From: Aeropyrum camini SY1 = JCM 12091
GTDB taxonomy: Archaea; Thermoproteota; Thermoprotei_A; Sulfolobales; Acidilobaceae
Reading direction: 5' to 3'
DNA length: 64,000 bases
Assembly (NCBI RefSeq): GCF_000591035.1
Contig: NC_022521.1
Location: 248,001 to 312,000, forward strand
Within the stretch, counting starts at the first letter, position 1. Each line of letters opens with the position of its first letter. The notes below the pieces were generated by a model. That model was not told where the DNA came from. It made no database searches and saw only the letters and a program-made list of their open reading frames with translations. Made by a program: the position numbers and the translations under genes. Shown piece by piece: positions 31,688-34,701 of the stretch.

Positions 31688-32716
31688 GTGGCCACTGTTC
31701 TGGGGGGTATGGTGCCTAGGCCTCCCTGGAGATACAGGCTGCTGGCGGCTATACATGCACACAGGAACGCGGGCGACCCTGGGGCGGACCCTGTTGTGGA
31801 GAGGGCTATAGACGGTCTTGTGAAGGCGACTTCAAGGGCTGTCCTTGGGGTTGAGAAGCCCGGCTGGATAACCTCTGGGGCTAGTGAGGGCAACCTGCTA
31901 GCCCTCTACAGCCTGCGGGAGGAGGGGTATAGGAGGGTTTTAACGTTCGACACATCACACTACAGCATACACAAGTCTGCCAGGATGCTTTCGATGGATC
32001 TAGAACTTCTCCCGACAGAGAGCGGTAGGCCCAGTCTCGAACTCCTCGAGAAGAAGGCGACTCCAGAGACGGTAATCGTGGCCACCGTCGGCACCACCCA
32101 GGAAGGGCTGGTGGACCCTGTGGGGGAGATAGCTCGCATCGCTAGAAGCGCGGGCGCCGCTGTACACGTGGACGCCGCCTACGGCGGCTACATAGCTAGG
32201 TTCCTAACAGGCAAGGCCAGGTTCTCCCTCGACCCACCTATTCATACCCTAGTGGTCGACGCCCACAAGATACCCGAGGCACCCCCTCCTGCTGGTGTTA
32301 TATTAGCCTCCAACCAGCGGATACTAGACAACCTCTGGTTTGAGTCACCCTACATACCCAGCGGCAGGCAGTTCGGAGTCCTAGGCACCAGGCCGGGAGG
32401 CCCCATAGTGGCGGCGTGGAGGAGGGTTGAAAACCTCGAGAGAAACCCCGGCTTCCCCAGGCTCGCCAGCATCCTAATGAGGAGGCTCAGGAAGACACTG
32501 GAAGCCCTCGAAAGACTCGGCTACAAGACACCAGTAACTCCCGACCTGCCAGTTGCCTGCGCAACACACCCCAGGATGGGGGAGGTCCTCGAAAGACTTG
32601 AAGCCTTGGGAGTACGAGTCTACAGGTGCCCCCGGTACAACGGGGTGAGAATAGTAATGATGCCGAGCACAAGACCGAAAACCTACGTAAAGTATCTAGC
32701 CTTGGATAAAAGCTAG
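31688..32716 (+). CDS. mfnA: Group II PLP-dependent decarboxylase (MfnA-like)
   Basis: A 342-residue pyridoxal-phosphate enzyme. Landmarks are ITSGASEGNLLALYSLRE, TFDTSHYSIHKSARML, VATVGTTQEGLVDPV, VHVDAAYGGYIARF and the PLP Lys in LVVDAHKIPEAPPPAG. This is the aspartate/tyrosine decarboxylase (MfnA) group of Archaea, which makes beta-alanine for CoA or tyramine for methanofuran. Methanofuran is not expected here, so aspartate decarboxylation for CoA is the better guess. GTG start, or ATG at 31709 after GGGGGG. The segment from HVDAAYGG to DAHK keeps both the Asp and Lys, so it looks active. Confidence 0.85.
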   Translation: MATVLGGMVPRPPWRYRLLAAIHAHRNAGDPGADPVVERAIDGLVKATSRAVLGVEKPGWITSGASEGNLLALYSLREEGYRRVLTFDTSHYSIHKSARMLSMDLELLPTESGRPSLELLEKKATPETVIVATVGTTQEGLVDPVGEIARIARSAGAAVHVDAAYGGYIARFLTGKARFSLDPPIHTLVVDAHKIPEAPPPAGVILASNQRILDNLWFESPYIPSGRQFGVLGTRPGGPIVAAWRRVENLERNPGFPRLASILMRRLRKTLEALERLGYKTPVTPDLPVACATHPRMGEVLERLEALGVRVYRCPRYNGVRIVMMPSTRPKTYVKYLALDKS

Positions 32717-32778
32717 CCCGACTAACAAGTCGTGTTTCCCATCCTAACCCTGATTTTATTATAATAAATGGGAAAGGC

Positions 32779-32786: not shown

Positions 32787-33062
32787 AGTGTGGGAGCTTA
32801 ATTTATGGCCTCCATATTGATAGCAGTTTGGGGTAACATGTTTCAATGGGGCCAGGCCGTATACAGAGTTTCATGCAGTTCTCAGGCTATTGACAATAAA
32901 GTACATGAGATAAAGAGCAGATCCTCCACTAGAGCTATATGGGACTGCATCAACCCGGATAAGGTCGTTATAATTGCTCCTGACTCAATAATAGCCGCCT
33001 CAGGAAAGGGTTGCACTCCGCAAGGTGTTATTAGCAACTATGTACAGCGGGCTAAAGTTTCC

Positions 33063-33069
33063 AAAAAAA
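33063..33069 (+). repeat. A7 homopolymer at the first csx1 frameshift
   Basis: Seven adenines follow TCC in the upstream csx1 frame. With six adenines the reading would pass directly into the frame carrying the DLTHG motif. Such runs are typical sites of replication or transcriptional slippage; a sequencing error is also possible at this one site. Confidence 0.8.
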
Positions 33070-33757
33070 TACAGCGAGTTTAAACAACTGTCAAGTAAAG
33101 TAGTAGAGTCGTGGCTTAGGGAGTGCGAGAACTTGGAACATGCTGACGTTGAGGTGGTACCCAACATAGGCTGGTACGGCGTTGACTATTGGCTACGTCT
33201 TAACATTCCCGCCACTGGCACGCCTTTCGACCAGGCAGGCTTCTTCATACTTTATTATATTCTCAAACACTTAGACAGCATAGAAGACGAAAGTATAGAT
33301 GTTCATTTAGACCTTACCCACGGTCTCAACTATTTGACAACACTCTTGAGAGACATAGGCCCATTCACTGCCACATGCCACGCCATGGCAAAAGGAGTTG
33401 ATATGACGCTTCATGTTTACAATAGCGAGCCCTATCCTTCGCCCAGACCTAACAACATCCCCAGGCTCGCCATATACAAGGTTGGCGAGCAGTCTATGAG
33501 CCTAAGAACGGCGTGGACAACTCTACTTAGTGCTATAGTGGACCTTGGTAGCCGAAAACTGGAGCTTATAAAACCCTCAGCTGGCAATAGACTTCCTAGC
33601 AGTTTGGAAGAAACCCTCGCATCCGCCAGGAAGCTCTACTCTAGAACTCTTGAGAGTGTGGGTATATACCTCTCATCAGCCCCTCTGGCGGCATACTACT
33701 ACAGCCGTAGCTTCGCTAAAGCTGGAGAAGAGCCCTACTTATCATCACTAGGATTAC

Positions 33758-33773
33758 TTAATATCTTAATATC
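33758..33773 (+). repeat. Perfect 8-bp tandem duplication TTAATATC at the second csx1 frameshift
   Basis: TTAATATC occurs twice back to back (33758-33765 and 33766-33773). The duplication changes frame and brings in the TAG at 33775-33777. Deleting one copy reads straight from GLLNI into IEDAIDNMVNVEG of the HEPN segment. An exact tandem copy at the exact breakpoint identifies the mutation. Confidence 0.9.
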
Positions 33774-34232
33774 ATAGAGGATGCTATAGACAACATGGTA
33801 AACGTGGAGGGTAGAGGGAGAGAACTCCTTGTAGAGTGGAGAAGTACATTGAAGCTACAGCCGGCCAAGGCGCTGATCGCCTCAGCAGCCATAGCCCAAC
33901 ACGTTGTAAACGCGGTAAAACAAGAAATCGATAATCAGGAAGGACTTGCGTTACAAAAACTAGAGGAGATAAACACCAGGCTATCCAGCCCTAACAAAAT
34001 GCTGGCCGACGAAGAGCTATCAAACATAAGGGACGGGTGTCTCAAGAAAAAGCCTAATGTAGTATGTCAACTACAAGTCTATAGAAAATGGCCCGATAAG
34101 GAATGCCGCGAGACAGGTATAAACAAGAGAAACTTCTACGCGCACGCCGGGCTAGAGAAGAACGTAACACAACTCGTAGAAAGAGACGGTACACTTTACC
34201 TAAGATATTGCCCTCAAGCCGAAAAAATATGA

Positions 34233-34400: not shown

Positions 34401-34495
34401 TGGAGCCGCCGGCGGGATTCGAACCCGCGACCACCGGCTTACAAGGCCGGCGCTTTAGGCCCCGCGCAGGGGTCTGCCTGCTGAGCTACGGCGGC
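34401..34495 (-). tRNA. tRNA-Thr(UGU) with an intron in the D arm
   Basis: Minus-strand tRNA with acceptor GCCGCCG/CGGCGGC, discriminator U and an encoded CCA (34401-34403). The anticodon stem-loop is CCGGC-CUUGUAA-GCCGG, anticodon UGU (Thr). The T arm is GCGGG-UUCGAAU-CCCGC. The sequence only folds normally if about 19 bases (beginning CCCCTGCG, with internal CCCC/GGGG pairing) are removed after GGCAGA, restoring the D arm GCUC...GAGC. That leaves 73 bases plus CCA. Exact splice sites are ambiguous by one base. A TTTAAA element lies at 34529-34534. Confidence 0.88.
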
Positions 34496-34573: not shown

Positions 34574-34701
34574 TGGTGCCGCCGCCGGGATTCGAACCCG
34601 GGACCTCCGGATCTCCCAGGCCCCCAGGCGACTTCGGCCTGGAGAGTGATTGTAGCCGGGCCGTATGAGTCCGGCGCTCTGCCAGGCTGAGCTACGGCGG
34701 C
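34574..34701 (-). tRNA. CAU tRNA (elongator Met or Ile2) with a 51-base intron at 37/38
   Basis: Minus-strand tRNA with acceptor GCCGCCG/CGGCGGC, discriminator A and an encoded CCA (34574-34576). D arm GCUC-AGCCUGGCA-GAGC; T arm CCGGG-UUCGAAU-CCCGG. The anticodon loop CUCAUA is interrupted after position 37 by about 51 bases; removal gives CCGGA-CUCAUAA-UCCGG with anticodon CAU. The mature tRNA is 74 bases plus CCA. The anticodon stem lacks the GGG/CCC of initiators and the acceptor does not begin A1-U72, so it is elongator Met or the Ile2 tRNA (modified C34). Sequence alone does not separate these. Confidence 0.88.

Follow-up and report, generated by a model that had tools for sequence, protein, structure and literature searches.

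A probable young pseudogene of a stand-alone Csx1 CARF-HEPN ribonuclease in Aeropyrum camini

A single Csx1-type CARF-HEPN protein is spread over three consecutive reading frames at 32805-34232 (+) of the 64-kb stretch of the A. camini genome analysed here (the window; all coordinates are window positions unless a contig is named). As sequenced, the gene cannot yield a full-length RNase. The reading that best fits the evidence, with a probability of roughly 85%, is that csx1 is a young, ordinary pseudogene of a stand-alone Csx1, broken by two small indels in a genome with no detectable type III partner.

Gene layout and the two frame breaks

The csx1 pseudogene consists of three overlapping or closely spaced pieces on the forward strand. 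ORF1 (32805..33083, frame 0, ending in TAA at 33081) encodes the N-terminal part of the CARF domain and matches positions 1-67 of the Pfam profile PF22230 (Csx1_CARF; E 3.1e-9) and positions 2-58 of TIGR01897; ORF2 (33025..33777, frame +1, ending in TAG at 33775) encodes the remainder of the CARF domain, including the DLTHG motif, and matches positions 56-163 of PF22230 (E 8.3e-14). The C-terminal piece, ORF3 (33795..34232, again frame 0), contains the HEPN domain with the motif RNFYAH and matches PF09455 (Csx1_HEPN; E 1.1e-10). Reading through both breaks gives a product of 472 aa, in which a single CARF match covers the entire PF22230 profile (positions 1-163, E 3.6e-25) and is followed by the HEPN match; DLTHG falls at residues 169-173, in agreement with the DxTHG motif of the Csx1 family, and Arg439 and His444 form the R-X4-6-H motif of the HEPN domain. 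The initial annotation had given the same coordinates, placed the two motifs in different frames and proposed a 472-residue repair, all of which is borne out by the ORFs, the Pfam matches and the read-through. A working effector would be encoded in a single open frame; here, stops at 33081 and 33775 accompany two frame changes. A putative TATA-like, AT-rich stretch, picked out by eye, precedes the first csx1 ATG (32754..32769, +).

The change from frame 0 to frame +1 probably occurred at a run of seven A residues (33063..33069, +), which is the sole A/T run of at least 7 in the window; the chance of a run of at least 7 inside the 46-bp zone is P about 0.011. Moving the junction anywhere between about 33000 and 33068 hardly alters the profile score, and in the alignment with the closest relative (33% identity) frame 0 is followed as far as about 33024 and frame +1 is picked up at about 33067. 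Homology thus narrows the first shift to roughly 45-70 bp and no finer, and because of the flat scores and the gap in this alignment between 33024 and 33067, assignment of the first lesion to the A7 run is likely, not proven. The second change, from frame +1 back to frame 0, coincides with an exact 8-bp tandem repeat (CTTAATAT, 2.1 copies; 33757..33773, +), located with Tandem Repeats Finder and an exact scan. This repeat is one of four exact tandems of 8-9 bp across the 64 kb; the chance of an 8-bp tandem inside the 60-bp zone is about 0.0007 in Markov sequences and about 0.006 when calculated from the window's own tandem density. Since the A7 run and the tandem are both improbable by chance at the break sites, a slippage-type origin of both breaks is credible. 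The initial annotation held that the two tracts account exactly for the two shifts; both are indeed present, but "exactly" is too strong for the A7 run.

A third frame break, at a run of six A residues beside the csx1 stop (34224..34229, +), is possible, not proven. The read-through product has only 7 residues after the conserved C-terminal Tyr, compared with 11-41 in full-length homologues and 15 in a C-terminal Csx1 piece from the same genus (G006; 119 aa, at a contig end), although the alignment with this piece does not reach into the alternative tail of csx1. Adopting the alternative tail raises the profile score by 5.6 bits, a gain that is not significant, being equalled by 24% of randomised tails.

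Conservation of the read-through product points to a recent loss. Compared with 36 full-length intact homologues, it matches 36 of 48 conserved columns, within the range of the homologues themselves (30 to 45); the residues retained include Gly10, Tyr20, Asp169, His172, Gly173, Asn175, Asn206, Ser207, Pro209, Arg439, His444, and Tyr465. The sole column of more than 90% conservation at which the product differs is a proline at position 12, where the intact paralogue of A. camini described below differs as well. None of the 472 read-through codons is an in-frame stop; a random substitution in this frame would introduce one with a probability of about 4.9%, so that the stop-free frame caps neutral substitutions at about 60 (4% of sites) at the 95% level. 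Because no in-frame stop is found and nearly all near-invariant residues are retained, the loss looks recent, meaning either that it is young or that the clock is slow. The earlier statement that the key motifs are intact, and the inactivation of a once complete Csx1, are well supported; the alignment with intact homologues also revealed no loss of conserved residues between the fragments, the observation named in the initial annotation as one that would count against the repair.

Genomic setting and the missing type III partner

The A. camini genome is a single contig of 1,595,994 bp, in which csx1 stands alone between a pyridoxal-dependent decarboxylase-like gene (31688..32716, +) and a gene for tRNA-Pro (GGG) (34401..34495, -; found by ARAGORN and Rfam). 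A second tRNA gene, probably intron-bearing, has an Rfam match at 34577-34701 (-) and is absent from the ARAGORN listing. The G+C content of the csx1 insert is 46%, compared with 59% for the window. The comparison genome (1,669,696 bp), which we take to be that of A. pernix K1, contains the decarboxylase-like gene (83% identity), and synteny, as judged by DNA match, resumes at tRNA-Pro; between these same two flanks csx1 was not found, here or elsewhere in that genome, and synteny is interrupted by about 11 kb of other DNA. The two window ORFs of at least 100 aa that have no A. pernix match are, in a non-overlapping set, exactly the csx1 pieces. The orthologous slot of A. pernix (L023:1892-9140) carries genes similar to those for two Hma defence-system proteins, the SNF2 helicase HmaA and the ATPase HmaC, separated by a 182-aa ORF; because A. 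pernix carries other, defence-like genes at the same site, the slot between the decarboxylase and tRNA-Pro genes is variable and of a defence type. Arrival of csx1 in A. camini and its loss from A. pernix are both compatible with this arrangement. An insertion of about 300 bp splits off the 3' end of the A. pernix decarboxylase gene (L023:1511-1896), at a place that corresponds to 32627-32716 of the window, where the gene is whole.

Csx1 has been described as being switched on by cA4, which the Cas10 cyclase makes (PMC11229360). The A. camini protein shares its domain order and length with the Csx1 of type III CRISPR systems (TIGR01897 cas_MJ1666; PF22230 plus PF09455), as well as the DxTHG and R-X4-H motifs and a conserved Asn-Ser-x-Pro; the closest solved structures by sequence are 4EOG and Csm6 entries including 6O6S. 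In the intact state, the CARF dimer would be expected to bind cyclic oligoadenylate from a type III Cas10, and this binding to switch on the HEPN RNase. Unlike a type III Csx1, however, the A. camini gene is broken twice and lies outside a type III locus, in a genome in which the signal source is undetectable. Profiles for Cas10 (PF22335) and RAMP (PF03787) had no match in the A. camini genome, although both were positive in control archaea, and a Cas10 query from the same genus likewise had no match there but detected Cas10 in three other family members; the genome thus appears to lack the Cas10-containing type III complex on which a working effector would depend. What it does contain are type I-A interference genes, in two separate locations, with Cas7 encoded at 320.6 and 732.6 kb.

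A second Csx1 of 482 aa is intact, encoded in a single open frame at G000:C1:742634-744082, where it adjoins cas1/cas4-like genes and an apparent CRISPR array and has no type III partner. The two copies belong to the same family, share the same motifs and both lack a type III partner; they differ in that they are only about 27% identical and that the paralogue is unbroken and placed beside cas1/cas4 and the apparent array. It is conceivable, though very unlikely, that archaea can retain Csx1 proteins in the absence of Cas10, the intact protein beside the type I-A genes answering a non-type-III signal while the copy in the window lost its role and decayed; if so, the contrast between broken and intact copies over Cas10-less genomes would mark rewired CARF effectors.

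Broken csx1 genes among relatives

Across 147 genomes of the order, csx1 tracks type III systems: 59 genomes have both, 16 type III only, 11 csx1 only and 61 neither (P 3.6e-15 for co-occurrence). Broken copies occur in 11 of the 70 csx1-bearing genomes, namely in 5 of 14 without detected Cas10 and 6 of 56 with it (Fisher P 0.036; P 0.006 among genomes at least 90% complete); if a genome qualifies as type III through either Cas10 or RAMP, the proportions become 4 of 11 without and 7 of 59 with (P 0.063 for all genomes, P 0.016 for the more complete ones), all of these values coming from small numbers of related genomes, with classes partly assigned by hand from match tables and several cuts tried. 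The excess of broken csx1 in genomes without detected Cas10 is accordingly suggestive, a lead rather than a result. Independent breakage of csx1 is frequent in the order. The other broken genes (G059, G071, G076, G085, G092, G105, G108, G109, G146, and G165) carry a frameshift, stop or truncation at different gene positions with no homopolymers of 6 or more, and, in contrast to the A. camini copy, several lie in genomes that possess Cas10. Within the G071 break, a 24-bp stretch is repeated.

The gene most similar to the broken csx1 (33% identity; G139:C103) lies beside genes for a CARF-like protein and for cas4-, cas2- and cas1-like proteins, and Cas10 was undetected in its genome, which is 75% complete. 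Searches with ORF2 of genome contigs and of a plasmid collection found no relatives, nor did a search of viral contigs, made with the intact paralogue and not with the broken gene. No literature on csx1 pseudogenes was found.

Origin and meaning of the breaks

Loss of the type III complex, or arrival of csx1 without one, would have ended selection on the gene, after which ordinary replication errors would accumulate, here a single-base slip, probably in the A7 run, and an 8-bp tandem duplication. Among spontaneous pyrEF inactivations in S. acidocaldarius, 95 of 108 were indels, and 84 of these were single-base (PMC2688765). Early decay would therefore be expected to yield a gene like this one, hit by two indels but with its motifs preserved, provided that Aeropyrum behaves like Sulfolobus, and with indels predominating in this way no switch would be needed to explain it. 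The initial annotation had proposed that csx1 was inactivated as a potentially toxic RNase. Toxicity as the cause is not supported; lost usefulness suffices, since Cas10 and type III RAMP are undetectable in the genome, and the intact second Csx1 is evidently tolerated. That paralogue also weighs against an explanation by lost need: it has stayed intact although the genome is Cas10-less, so lack of Cas10 need not lead to rapid decay.

The alternative raised by the initial annotation, phase-variable switching, would mean that a costly RNase is turned on and off within the population as the A7 run slips and the 8-bp unit is gained or lost. The coincidence of both breaks with slippage-prone tracts, which exceeds chance, and the intact motifs speak for it, and yet the proposal is very unlikely. 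A single slip leaves the other break in place, so that both tracts would have to change together; the tracts are short (7 units and 2 copies), and none of 39 homologues, the nearest only about 33% identical, conserves a slippery tract, their 6 runs of at least 7 and 3 exact tandems being scattered over 59 kb. The broken csx1 genes of other genomes lack such tracts and break elsewhere, and a switch would act on an RNase whose signal source is undetectable. A literature search for phase variation of csx1 found none. An error of sequencing or assembly, with csx1 intact in the organism, has a small probability. An A7 run is where some methods typically go wrong, but ORFs that stay in frame with A. 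pernix, at 70% identity or more, contain 19 of the window's 22 other homopolymers of 7-8. Errors do not usually take the form of an 8-bp tandem duplication, and both breaks hit the same gene, the one that lacks a type III partner. With these homopolymer-bearing ORFs in frame, and with 74 of the 76 non-overlapping window ORFs of at least 100 aa matched in A. pernix (median identity 88%), an error-prone assembly appears unlikely.

Two further proposals would preserve a function for the gene as it stands, and both are highly improbable. Runs of A can induce transcript slippage in other systems, and programmed frameshifting or slippage at the A7 run might in principle yield a full protein; the first shift is +1, however, whereas -1 is common at A-runs, the second would require a net change matching the 8-bp unit where there is no slippery run, and the relatives are open in one frame. 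The pieces might instead serve as separate small proteins, a CARF sensor fragment and a HEPN RNase fragment, since in-frame start codons are present in ORF2 and ORF3, and their motifs are complete. ORF2, however, lacks the N-terminal part that bears the conserved Gly10 and Tyr20, no ribosome-binding site is evident by eye before 33795, and no comparable split is retained in relatives, whose breaks differ.

Decay of a Csx1 that was no longer useful thus remains the preferred reading of the three frames. Because spontaneous inactivation in Sulfolobus is mainly due to indels, a "clean" two-indel lesion is by itself no sign of switching in thermophilic archaea. The pseudogene is of little import alone; it is a data point for the rule that CARF effectors seem to break more once Cas10 is gone.
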